Source: a virus
Reading direction: 5' to 3' (one strand)
DNA length: 26,502 bases
Virus record (IMG/VR): IMGVR_UViG_3300046007_004511
Coordinates: 1-26,502 of that record
Positions 166 to 8,451 of the stretch are shown piece by piece. Numbering within the stretch: the first letter of the stretch is position 1; the number at the start of each line of letters is the position of its first letter. A program made the position numbers and the translations under genes. The notes below the pieces were generated by a model. The model was not told the DNA's origin. It searched no databases and saw nothing but the letters and a program-made list of their open reading frames with translations.

Positions 166-1269
166 CTAGTTTGTTTTTGCCTTAACTACCTTCCATCCAA
201 CACCGCGAAGATCGTCATATTCTGCGGTCATCTTGGCATGCTTATGCCCCATGATTGCTTGGGCGAACTCTTGACCATATTCCTGCTTGTAAAGTCGCTC
301 AGCTAGTGACCTGATTTCATGGAATGTTGGCGGTGTGCTGCCTTCTGCTGATTTGATGCCTGCTTTCTCACGCGCTACTTTGAAAGCTGCTGCTAGTGTG
401 TCATCGGCTATCTTATCGCCTTTGGTGTACGTGCCAGATGTGCGTACATGGTGCAAAAGATACTTGCTGATGACGAATGTTCGGCAACGCTTCACAACTT
501 CTTCAATCGACAGATTAACCGCTTGCAATCGAATCTTTCCGTCCTGCTGTAGTTTGAAGCCTGTCTTGATCTGAGTGATGAATAGCGATCCATCGCGATA
601 GTCGGCAAATTTTAGATTGGCAATGTCTCCACGTCTTTGACCAGTTAATAAAGCCAAGTCCATCGCGTTTTTAAGCCAGTTCGAAGCGTGAGAGTAGATT
701 GCCTGGTACTGCTCAAGCGATAGGCGCTCACGTTTAACCTCATACTTCGGTACGCTAGTAGCTGAAACGGGGTTCTTGCCTGTCTCAATCAAGCCTTTAG
801 TCTCTGCCATGCGAAAAACATCACTAAGCCTTGTTCGCAGGTTTAAAGCTACGCTAGGCGTACTCTCTTTTATTAGCTTATCAAGGGCGGTAGAAACGTG
901 CTGAGTCGTAATGTCTTTCAAGTTCATCCATGCAAAGTCAAATTTCTTGATGCGGGTAAGCATTAGTTTTGCATAGACGATCGTTCCTTTGGCTGGCTTG
1001 GTTTCTTCCATCCACATTGGCAGGTAGTCATCTAACCATTGCTCAAGTGTCTTTTTCTCAATACCAGAAACCCATTCAACAAGATCAGACTTTTTCATGT
1101 TGGCAATCGCTGCATTGGCTGCGCGGGAGTCTTGAAAAGCCTTTGCGCGGTCACGTCCTAATCCTTTAACTTTTCCGTTAAGGGGATTCCTGTACCAGAA
1201 ATAGCCGTCTGGCTTCTGGTACAGGTTAGGAGGAAATCCCTTGCGTTTGGCGCTGCGTGGCTTGTTCAT
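166..1269 (-). CDS. int: Lambda-type tyrosine integrase
   Basis: Site-specific recombinase that integrates and, with Xis, excises the phage. The 367 residues are close to lambda Int (356). The N-terminus has the lambda arm-binding pattern (PPNLY, DGYFWYRNP, GLGRDR, residues 13-41). A core-binding domain spans about 70-170 and a catalytic domain follows. The active-site set is complete: R212 in TGQRRGD, K235 in KTG, H317 and R320 in HEIRSL, H342 in GHK and the nucleophile Y351 in AEYDD. R212 and K235 carry the same numbers as in lambda Int. The ATG overlaps the xis stop codon by four bases (ATGA), so translation is probably coupled. It is the last gene of the leftward operon. Confidence 0.97.
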   Translation of the reverse strand: MNKPRSAKRKGFPPNLYQKPDGYFWYRNPLNGKVKGLGRDRAKAFQDSRAANAAIANMKKSDLVEWVSGIEKKTLEQWLDDYLPMWMEETKPAKGTIVYAKLMLTRIKKFDFAWMNLKDITTQHVSTALDKLIKESTPSVALNLRTRLSDVFRMAETKGLIETGKNPVSATSVPKYEVKRERLSLEQYQAIYSHASNWLKNAMDLALLTGQRRGDIANLKFADYRDGSLFITQIKTGFKLQQDGKIRLQAVNLSIEEVVKRCRTFVISKYLLHHVRTSGTYTKGDKIADDTLAAAFKVAREKAGIKSAEGSTPPTFHEIRSLAERLYKQEYGQEFAQAIMGHKHAKMTAEYDDLRGVGWKVVKAKTN

Positions 1270-6164: not shown

Positions 6165-6683
6165 GTCTCTCTCCTAAAAAATCAGTGACCCGTAACGGGA
6201 GTCATTCGGCTTTAACGCAATTTGCTGCGGCTTTCATCTGTAAGCGTAGAGTCAATCTTGGTTAGTGCTTGACACCACTAGCTAGCTATTTACTCAGGCG
6301 CTAGCTCCCTTAAATCGTGCGGCATCGGATTAGGCGAGTTACCGATCTTGCTAAGTCGCTTTCCTTTTACATACGACTTGCCCCAGCAGGAACCGCAAAC
6401 TACTTATCAGCTCTGACGCCCCATAAAGCAGGGTTCCGACTTTCCTGCAAAGTACTTTGGTAATTTTTTGTCCTGGTCGCTAACACCTAAGACTGCCAAA
6501 GCTGATAAGTAGTTAGGCTGGAACCGCGAAACCAGCCTTCATTTGCTTTGCTCCATGCATAGAGCATTGCGCGATATTCAAACTGCCAGCGGGTGCCACC
6601 TGTGAGTTCTGTTCAAATCTGACGCCCCTCAAATTGGCTGTTTGGCCGCTGATCTTGATTCGCGGTGATTTGCTTGTCTCGAT
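6165..6683 (-). ncRNA. Structured 5' leader of the PL transcript (about 520 nt)
   Basis: No convincing gene. Strong inverted repeats crowd the leader: a perfect 15-bp pair (6398-6412 with 6500-6514), whose extra U-G closing pair fits only minus-strand RNA, plus GGCTGG/CCAGCC (6516-6521/6532-6537), AAGTCG/CGACTT (6353-6358/6374-6379), GCAGG/CCTGC (6428-6432/6444-6448), ATCGG/CCGAT (6324-6328/6342-6346), AGCTAGC/GCTAGCT (6280-6286/6300-6306) and TGCTC/GAGCA (6549-6553/6562-6566). TCTGACGCCCC occurs twice (6412-6422, 6618-6628). A CCCG/CGGG hairpin with T6 lies just before the ribosome-binding site at 6175-6210. This could be a cis-acting antitermination or attenuation RNA, or a separate ncRNA; the role is inferred. 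Confidence 0.55.
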
Positions 6684-6689
6684 GTAGTA

Positions 6690-6718
6690 ATCTTAAGGCA
6701 GCTTAAAACATAAGTCAA
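6690..6718 (-). promoter_or_regulatory. PL promoter of the leftward early operon
   Basis: Reading the minus strand: TTGACT (6713-6718), a 17-bp spacer and TAAGAT (6690-6695). This is the same geometry and the same -10 hexamer as PR. Operator OL1 lies over the spacer and -10. Transcription would start near 6683 and run through the long leader into the genes at 6164 and below. Confidence 0.85.
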
Positions 6719-6763
6719 GAATTATTTAACCTGAATTAAAATATTTCTTTAAGTCGGGTTAAA
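6692..6763. promoter_or_regulatory. Left operators OL1, OL2, OL3 for CI/Cro
   Basis: Three 16-bp sites of the form YTTAA-N6-TTAAA: 6692-6707 (spacer GGCAGC), 6725-6740 (CCTGAA) and 6748-6763 (GTCGGG). The right operator region beside cI and cro holds the same pattern. OL1 overlaps the PL -10 and spacer, OL2 lies just upstream of the PL -35, and OL3 overlaps the weak -35 of the divergent plus-strand promoter. Assignment to CI/Cro follows from the shared pattern at PR. Confidence 0.75.
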
Positions 6764-6776
6764 TGTGGTCTATAAT
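6748..6776 (+). promoter_or_regulatory. Promoter for the plus-strand structured RNA
   Basis: A perfect TATAAT (6771-6776) with a weak -35 (TTTAAG, 6748-6753) at 17 bp. The -35 coincides with the left half of operator OL3, so CI or Cro binding should control it. The start would fall near 6783, directly ahead of the structured RNA region and divergent from PL. Confidence 0.6.
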
Positions 6777-6782
6777 TGACAC

Positions 6783-7120
6783 ATCGAACTTAAGTATTCG
6801 TGTGGATCAAGCGCCCAAAGTTTTGCGTTTGTATAGAAGTCGTACTCAGAAACGAGCCACGTTGTAGATGCTGCGAAATAGGGAAGGGGAAACCAGCCGA
6901 ACGAGCGCAGCAGAAGTGCCCAAGAACGAGCTAGGCGGGGCAAAGGTGGGTGATAGTGGATAGAGCCTGAACTAGTGGGAGTGCGAAAGCGCCCAAAGTC
7001 TGTCCTATGATGCAACGTCCGAACTCAAACTCAAGAGCATAGACGTGCGGCATCTCACGGAAGAAAGATTTATGTCTTTCTCTGGGAGGTGCTGTGCTTA
7101 GAACCGACTAAATCTAAGAG
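6783..7120 (+). ncRNA. Candidate structured noncoding RNA (~340 nt)
   Basis: No coding frame is supported here. On the plus strand the region folds into strong local helices: AAGCGC/GCGTTT (6809-6814/6825-6830); GCTGCG/CGCAGC (6870-6875/6906-6911); a GAAA tetraloop hairpin GTGC/GCGC (6981-6984/6989-6992) extended by two G-C pairs past a bulged A; CTATG/CATAG (7005-7009/7038-7042); a 12-bp helix 7045-7056/7086-7097 capped by AGAAAGA/TCTTTCT (7062-7068/7075-7081); and TTAGA/TCTAA (7098-7102/7113-7117). Several pairs are G-U, which work only in plus-strand RNA. AAGCGCCCAAAG occurs twice (6809-6820, 6987-6998). The 3' end is uncertain because no clear U-run follows. Family not recognised. Confidence 0.6.
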
Positions 7121-7151
7121 CATTTATATATAACTAATTATAGTTAACTAG

Positions 7152-7451
7152 TTATTGAGTGTTTAAAGGACAAAGAGATACAGTTGAAATTGTATTGATA
7201 ACGCCATTAGAATACTTGCAATATCTGACATTACCATTATCGACCGTTTGTTGTAAAAAGCCAGTCAACACCATTGGTTGCTGTGGATGAATTTTTTGCT
7301 GCGGGATTGTGTAAGGCTGCATTGATTGAATGATTTGCTGATTTCTCTGCTGTTGCTGCAAAGACTCATTAAATGCTTTGTTAAACTTCTCAGCGTCAAA
7401 ATTAGCGCAGCCAGTCAAAAAAACAACAGCCAGTAAAAACACGGTTTTCAT
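7152..7451 (-). CDS. Small outer-membrane lipoprotein co-transcribed with cI
   Basis: A 99-residue lipoprotein. The signal peptide KTVFLLAVVFLTGC ends in the lipobox LTGC with the lipidated Cys at residue 15 and Ala at +2, which predicts outer-membrane sorting. The mature part is Gln/Asn-rich, then closes with two cysteines (RYCKYSNG..., SLCPL) that may form a disulfide. The ATG (7449-7451) lies one base after the cI stop codon, with AAGGTGG inside the cI end as ribosome-binding site; a frame-extending ATG at 7484 would destroy the signal peptide. Expression with the repressor suggests a lysogen function such as superinfection exclusion (inference). Confidence 0.82.
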   Translation of the reverse strand: MKTVFLLAVVFLTGCANFDAEKFNKAFNESLQQQQRNQQIIQSMQPYTIPQQKIHPQQPMVLTGFLQQTVDNGNVRYCKYSNGVINTISTVSLCPLNTQ

Positions 7452-7452
7452 A

Positions 7453-8145
7453 TTAACCACCTTGTCTATAAACGAATTGACCAACGATCTTCAAAAGGTC
7501 GGCATGTGAGGGCGGTATAACCTCATCTGGGTATCGCCTCTTGTCCTGATTCTTGCTCTCCAGCGTCCAAGTGCCATCAATCGACCGTCTTAATACTTTG
7601 ATTCGCAAACCGTCTGGATGCTGGATAGCAAATATCTTGCCGCTCACTGGCTCGGTCTTAGATCGATCAAAAATGCACATATCACCGTCAATGATAAATT
7701 CGGCCATGCTGTCACCATCGGCATAAATAGCAAAAGCATTGTCTGGCTTAAGGCTGTACTTTTTAAAAAACGAGCCTTCCTTGATTAGCCTGCCTTTTGG
7801 TATTTGGTCAAACGTCATGACACCACCGCCACAAGAGCCGCGAATATCCCAATACTCGACATAACCAACTTCTCCCCATTCTGTTTGGAGGGCGTCAGTC
7901 ACAGCATCGTCTTTTATTTCTGGCGTTCCTTTGCCTGTCTCTAACCACATTGAATCAACACCGAGATAGGAGGCAAGCAAACGCGCCTTCTTTGCGCTGA
8001 TGCCATTGGTATCGCTCAGCCAGTAATTAACTGATGCGTCAGACGATCCAGCAGCACGCGCCAGGTCTGCTTGTATGACTTCGCTCCCGTCTCTGCCTTC
8101 TTTTAGCTGTATCGCCAGCTTTATGCGTTCGGATAATAAATTCAT
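7453..8145 (-). CDS. cI: CI-type repressor with S24 self-cleavage domain
   Basis: The 230-residue maintenance repressor of lysogeny. Residues 24-46 form an HTH of the XRE/CI type (QADLARAAGSSDASVNYWL). The C-terminal LexA/S24 peptidase domain has the catalytic Ser146 (DGDSMAE) and Lys183 (RIKVL). A Cys-Gly bond at 105-106 (SCGGG) is the likely autocleavage site; some lambdoid repressors (HK022) use Cys-Gly instead of Ala-Gly. Activated RecA would trigger cleavage and induction. The ATG has no clear Shine-Dalgarno, so a leaderless message is possible. It is divergent from cro, with the operators between. Confidence 0.95.
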   Translation of the reverse strand: MNLLSERIKLAIQLKEGRDGSEVIQADLARAAGSSDASVNYWLSDTNGISAKKARLLASYLGVDSMWLETGKGTPEIKDDAVTDALQTEWGEVGYVEYWDIRGSCGGGVMTFDQIPKGRLIKEGSFFKKYSLKPDNAFAIYADGDSMAEFIIDGDMCIFDRSKTEPVSGKIFAIQHPDGLRIKVLRRSIDGTWTLESKNQDKRRYPDEVIPPSHADLLKIVGQFVYRQGG

Positions 8146-8250: not shown

Positions 8251-8451
8251 ATGCAAACAGCAGACGCATCAACGCTAATCGACGCTCTGGGCGGCAATAA
8301 AAAGGTCGCCAAGACATGCGAAATCACAGAGCAAGCGGTTTCTCAGTGGCGGAAAAAAGGCATCCCAAAGCCGTGGCAAAAGTTTTTCAAACAGCGGAAC
8401 CCAAAAGTTTTCAACCAATTTCAAGGTGAAACCAATGTGACACAAAGCTAA
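8251..8451 (+). CDS. cro: Cro-like regulator
   Basis: A 66-residue HTH protein, the first gene after PR and divergent from cI. The HTH reads DALGGNKKVAKTCEITEQAVSQWRKKGIP, the YdaS/Cro-type pattern in which a Gly-x-x-x-x-V-A-x-x-x-x-V-x-Q helix pair precedes a W-x-x-x-G-I-P turn. It represses cI by occupying the operators and tips the phage to lytic growth. Length is as in lambda Cro (66). Followed by 53 bp without a gene. Confidence 0.9.
   Translation: MQTADASTLIDALGGNKKVAKTCEITEQAVSQWRKKGIPKPWQKFFKQRNPKVFNQFQGETNVTQS

Follow-up and report, generated by a model that had tools for sequence, protein, structure and literature searches.

The comparison of two phage sequences supports positions 6783–7120, plus strand, as a conserved structured noncoding RNA, and the predicted element as a new structured RNA of phages. 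The reading that we favour, at a probability of roughly one half, is that a lambda-like temperate phage encodes here a structured noncoding RNA of ∼340 nt that would be repressed by CI, made early and active in trans. The window, that is, the whole stretch of DNA analysed, is an entire 26.5-kb virus record, and all comparative evidence comes from this window and a single relative. By its sequence the phage carrying the element is temperate and lambda-like. It encodes an integrase (166–1269, minus strand), an Erf-like annealing protein within the leftward operon, a CI/LexA-type repressor (7453–8145, minus) and Cro (8251–8451, plus), and the terminase and portal genes lie rightward, past Cro. 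The element is located between the leftward promoter PL (6690–6718, minus) and the 3′ end of the cI operon, the final gene of which encodes a small predicted orphan lipoprotein (7152–7484, minus).

Conservation and folding of the element

As the sequence-only reading had stated, 6783–7120 holds no credible reading frame. The plus-strand maximum is 44 aa (GTG), whereas the minus strand carries an 81-aa frame at 6770–7015 that cannot be conserved, because the indels between the window and its relative are 1, 2, 8 and 17 bases; comparison of the element in the two phages gives no reading frame common to both (a tiny frame is described with the helices below). In single-sequence folding the full length is no better than shuffles (z −1.07 plus, −0.94 minus), although a local fold of 7000–7199 reaches z −6.2. 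Thus, the many stable helices that had been proposed are present, but stability beyond chance over the full length is not, and a homolog was therefore needed to judge the structure.

A search with the CI repressor yielded one such relative, an 8.8-kb IMG/VR phage contig (L002/L003, hereafter L003) whose repressor is 66% identical to that of the window. By blastn, window positions 6659–7119 align with L003 1039–1493 at 72.7% identity over 461 bases (E 5e-66), and the position and orientation of the element match. The similarity runs out at 7119, in agreement with the 3′ boundary of 7120 drawn from the sequence, and the predicted extent of 6783–7120 (plus) is based on this identity together with the two-sequence folding described below. 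Among the DNA matches, cI ranks next at 68%, a conservation close to that of the element. When 19 window genes were tested, only cI (66%), Cro (48%) and two right-arm genes (43–44%) had an L003 counterpart, and neither gene flanking the element was among them. The element thus persists as one block between PL and the cI operon, with turnover of the genes around it. At the position matching the lipoprotein gene, L003 has two small exported proteins unrelated to it; the lipoprotein gene and these exported-protein genes are possible candidates for superinfection exclusion.

Two-sequence folding (alifold) of the automatic alignment gives −68.4 for the plus strand, a value reached by 0 of 200 column shuffles (−43.7 ± 4.9; z −5.0), whereas the minus strand folds no better than expected by chance (z −0.5), which bears out the plus-strand assignment previously made from G-U pairs. 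Windows of 120 columns on the plus strand give z-values of −1.7 to −6.2 across 6815–7111; in the control, the cI coding region, windows mostly stay close to 0, apart from two on the minus strand (−1.6 and −3.0). The automatic alignment of 6863–7122 contains 58 pairs, every one of which is formed in both sequences, and all 13 variable pairs are kept, 5 of them via two-sided change; controls with slid partners give 37–47% paired cells and 0–1 double changes. The full hand model, which extends to the 5′ end, has 74 pairs, with 21 of the 22 variable pairs kept (10 two-sided) and 1 broken. The helices P1–P3 and P8 in this model were aligned by hand and picked by eye, and their covariation is therefore optimistic, so that the automatic count, which is lower, deserves more trust. 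By these calculations it is conservation, not single-sequence stability, that lifts the structure above chance. Compensatory changes in a homologous phage had been named beforehand as the test of the structure, and L003 keeps the helices, double changes included; this upholds the proposal of a structured noncoding RNA read from the plus strand, divergently from PL. That the conservation is one of DNA, as an operator region, a recombination joint or a fast-evolving small gene, with no functional RNA behind it, is highly improbable: the ordinary single-sequence fold would suit this explanation, but the compensatory changes rebuild pairing for a single strand, and the indel lengths are not divisible by three.

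Predicted architecture of the RNA and a possible 3′ extension in L003

The 5′ part of the model begins with three hairpins whose sequences vary almost without constraint while pairing is retained. P1 (6785–6800) is a small hairpin of 4 pairs, 2 of which are changed one-sidedly with pairing kept; P2 (6809–6830) pairs AAGCGC/GCGUUU in the window and GUGCGG/CCGCGC in L003, with 3 two-sided changes; and P3 (6840–6855) pairs UCGU/ACGA and, in L003, UCCA/UGGA, with 2 two-sided changes. P4, with P4a and P4b (6869–6912), contains the GCUGCG/CGCAGC helix recognized in the initial inspection, located at 6869–6875/6906–6912 when its flanking U-A pair is included (UGCUGCG/CGCAGCA); the L003 counterpart is UGCUACU/GGUAGUA, with 4 two-sided changes in the automatic alignment. 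P5 (6918–6941; GCCC/GGGC) closes a loop with the invariant AAGAACGAGC and AGGCG, and offers no covariation test because it is itself invariant.

The 3′ multibranch domain is closed by a long-range helix, P6 (6945–6956 with 7098–7109), of whose 9 pairs 2 are altered by G-C/G-U exchange and none is broken (automatic alignment). Enclosed by P6 are P7/P7a, a variable P8 and a near-invariant P9. P7 with P7a (6958–7005) consists of a GGAUAGA/UCUGUCC stem and a hairpin capped by a GAAA tetraloop, the latter being the GUGC-GAAA-GCGC hairpin (6981–6992) already seen in the sequence. The P8 arm (7015–7046; ACGUC/GACGU) keeps 4 of 5 pairs in L003 and breaks 1, and P9 (7049–7093) corresponds to the long helix with a 7-bp stem noted earlier, for which the consensus is 8 and 3 pairs with a small internal loop between them, followed by 7 pairs. 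Near-invariant stretches of the RNA (AAGAACGAGC and GGUGGGUGAUAGUGG) suggest a binding surface, and the single-stranded stretches that do not vary could form tertiary contacts or a surface for protein.

Inside the RNA, a 13-base exact repeat (AAGCGCCCAAAGT) occurs at 6809–6821 (P2) and 6987–6999 (P7a) and is inexact in L003. At 7084–7111 (plus), an SD-like GGGAGG is followed by GTG CTT AGA ACC GAC TAA, for which the L003 counterpart reads TTG CCT AGA ACC GAT TGA; this tiny frame, common to both, is perhaps a mere by-product of G-U-preserving changes in P6.

No canonical terminator follows 7120 in the window. In L003, a 359-nt noncoding stretch (1500–1858, plus) lies directly 3′ of the homologous RNA and continues to where the cI operon ends. 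Its fold (z −8.0 on the plus strand, −5.95 minus) is a closed domain made up of multiple hairpins, and at its end a GGGGTGGA/TCCACCCC stem carries a T-rich tail; a search of named phages gave no relatives of it, and the window has no counterpart. The L003 RNA may possibly consist of two domains. A more speculative and rather unlikely extension is that the two phages hold the first members of a modular CI-controlled family, with a ∼340-nt body and, in some, a phage-specific second domain, giving a ∼700-nt ornate RNA that would be made at lytic commitment and would seize a host machine or form an RNA-only assembly.

Promoter, operators and predicted action

The perfect TATAAT reported upstream is present at 6771–6776 (plus), where it would serve as the −10 of the RNA promoter with a predicted start near 6783, and it is conserved in L003 (1139–1144), where the promoter scores 10/12 and has its −35 within the operator. 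PL consists of TTGACT and TAAGAT separated by 17, and the same pair occurs in L003. Operator OL1 (CTTAAGGCAGCTTAAA, 6692–6707), which has 1 mismatch to CTTAAGNNNNCTTAAG, lies between the −10 and −35 of PL and has its L003 counterpart at 1071–1086. Operator OL2 (TTTAAGTCGGGTTAAA, 6748–6763) overlies the predicted RNA promoter at its −35 region and spacer, with a counterpart at the equivalent position in L003 (1115–1130, TTTAAGACGACTTAAG). Sites resembling CTTAAG-N4-CTTAAG are clustered at OL (6692, 6748) and OR (8169, 8204), and in the same places in L003. The centre of OL2 is ∼−27 to −28 from the predicted RNA start, and in both phages the operator overlaps the promoter. As the −35 region is inside a CI/Cro-type operator, the RNA is probably CI-controlled, silent in lysogens and early upon induction or infection.

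In the leading reading, CI bound at OL2 (centre ∼−27) in a lysogen would shut the RNA promoter along with PL, and upon induction or fresh infection the RNA would be among the first transcripts, divergent from PL. It would fold to a compact multibranched particle made of the 5′ hairpins (P1–P4) and the P6-closed 3′ domain. This body is predicted to act in trans, and its likeliest mode is attachment to a host protein or complex in the early takeover, not antisense pairing; RNA polymerase, a ribosomal component or a ribonuclease is a conceivable partner, as a guess. With the RNA on a CI-type operator, its timing is predictable and simple to test, and the small size of a ∼340-nt RNA favours probing and structure work. 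Action in trans would make it an instrument of host takeover that consists of RNA and not of protein.

The operator arrangement also bears on the opposite timing. Lambda CI is able to activate from operators beside promoters, and the RNA could mainly belong to the lysogenic phase, with CI activating from OL2 or failing to block, and function in superinfection exclusion or as a small-RNA sponge. The RNA promoter does adjoin an operator, and its perfect TATAAT means that basal activity could be high, but in both phages the −35 region and spacer are overlain by the operator, and a site so placed should obstruct polymerase and not recruit it; we regard a lysogeny-phase RNA as unlikely.

Action in cis, in which the transcript would converge on the cI operon and lower cI expression by collision or antisense as an aid to lytic commitment, is consistent with the direction of the RNA, which in both phages faces the cI operon from its 3′ side, and with the want of a clear terminator after it in the window. 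Collision or antisense, however, has no need of an elaborate conserved fold, and the would-be targets, the distal genes of the cI operon, are unrelated between the phages: a conserved antisense target in the cI operon was sought and none found, and no 12-nt match exists between the RNA and the rest of the phage's own genome. Such a role is accordingly judged distinctly unlikely. A nascent-RNA antiterminator acting on its own polymerase, in the manner of the HK022 put sites, would suit an RNA that begins at its promoter and is predicted to be transcribed early, but no plus-strand gene is there to be served before cro, >1.1 kb away, and put sites extend over ∼70 nt only, upstream of the genes that they serve. 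The element shares with put RNA the character of a structured element opening a transcript predicted to be early, whereas it is far larger and has no downstream sense gene before cro; antitermination is judged very unlikely.

Relation to known RNAs and search for relatives

Rfam 15 gave 0 matches above the gathering threshold in the whole window, and a search of the element and its L003 homolog at E up to 10 gave chance matches only, none credible, so that the family remains as unrecognized by covariance models as it was on inspection. Group I intron, RNase P, riboswitch and CRISPR readings obtained no Rfam score whatever and were rejected. The lambda OOP RNA is a simple ∼77-nt antisense to cII with a terminator; like OOP and other antisense RNAs of immunity regions, the element is a short phage RNA near the lysogeny switch, but unlike OOP it has no antisense match and has a complex conserved fold.

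GOLLD is a phage-encoded, highly structured RNA of unknown function with one conserved and one variable region, the level of which climbs during lysis; many members exceed 800 nt, are often found by tRNA islands and are conserved in the 3′ half (PMC12286853). ROOL is likewise a structured phage or prophage RNA of unknown function, with a 659-nt example, found near tRNA islands (PMC12286853). The element resembles GOLLD in being phage-encoded and highly structured, and ROOL in being a structured RNA carried by phages. It differs from GOLLD in its size of ∼340 nt, its place beside immunity operators and its contigs without tRNA, and GOLLD and ROOL models gave no match to the element or its L003 homolog at E up to 10; to ROOL there is no match of sequence or model. 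No tRNA or tmRNA was found in the window, and no tRNA in L003, both contigs possibly being fragments. From promoter to cI-operon end the window offers ∼340 nt, about half the GOLLD/ROOL length range (∼650 to >800 nt), and L003 has space for an RNA of ∼700 nt. Membership in either family is not supported, and the kinship in style with GOLLD and ROOL suggested earlier is therefore a loose analogy at most. For these two RNAs, which are also characterized by homo-oligomeric RNA cages, we know of no function, nor of any regulatory logic that links such RNAs to the lysogeny decision.

The RNA family is rare: beyond the window, it was found in L003 alone among the viral contigs, named phages, plasmids and ∼750 bacterial genomes searched. 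Viral contigs were scanned by exact and gapped conserved motifs and by a CI profile, with L003 as the sole genuine relative. L011 and L022 proved to be chance matches in unrelated sequence, that of L022 lying inside a small-terminase-like gene, and seven 18-mer matches in genome contigs (L004–L010) were likewise due to chance, the similarity being confined to the 18-mer. Searches by blastn against 50,697 phage records and 72,556 plasmids returned nothing, and the phages with D3-like repressors (D3, JBD44, Moraxella Mcat6 and Acinetobacter ABMM1) have no match near cI. A covariance model built for the element (R1) was run against the ∼750 bacterial genomes: 369 genomes of one class gave 0 matches, and 399 genomes of the phylum gave 1 (E 0.06), which lies between two chromosomal genes with several P4 pairs broken and was rejected. 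As searches for the phage's host with terminase, repressor and portal protein gave distant matches only, these bacterial searches are weak negatives.

Noncoding features also occur on the leftward side of PL. The PL leader (6205–6690) is noncoding over ∼490 nt, contains an inverted repeat of 18 nt (6398–6415/6497–6514) and folds with z −2.1 on the minus and −3.0 on the plus strand; it has no relative among the phages searched, and a comparable leader is absent from L003 there. Ahead of the first gene of the left operon, a hairpin (GACTCCCGTTACGGGTC) with a T-run is present at 6183–6228 (minus), and L003 has a similar hairpin at ∼157–199, so that this hairpin is possibly a conserved early terminator.
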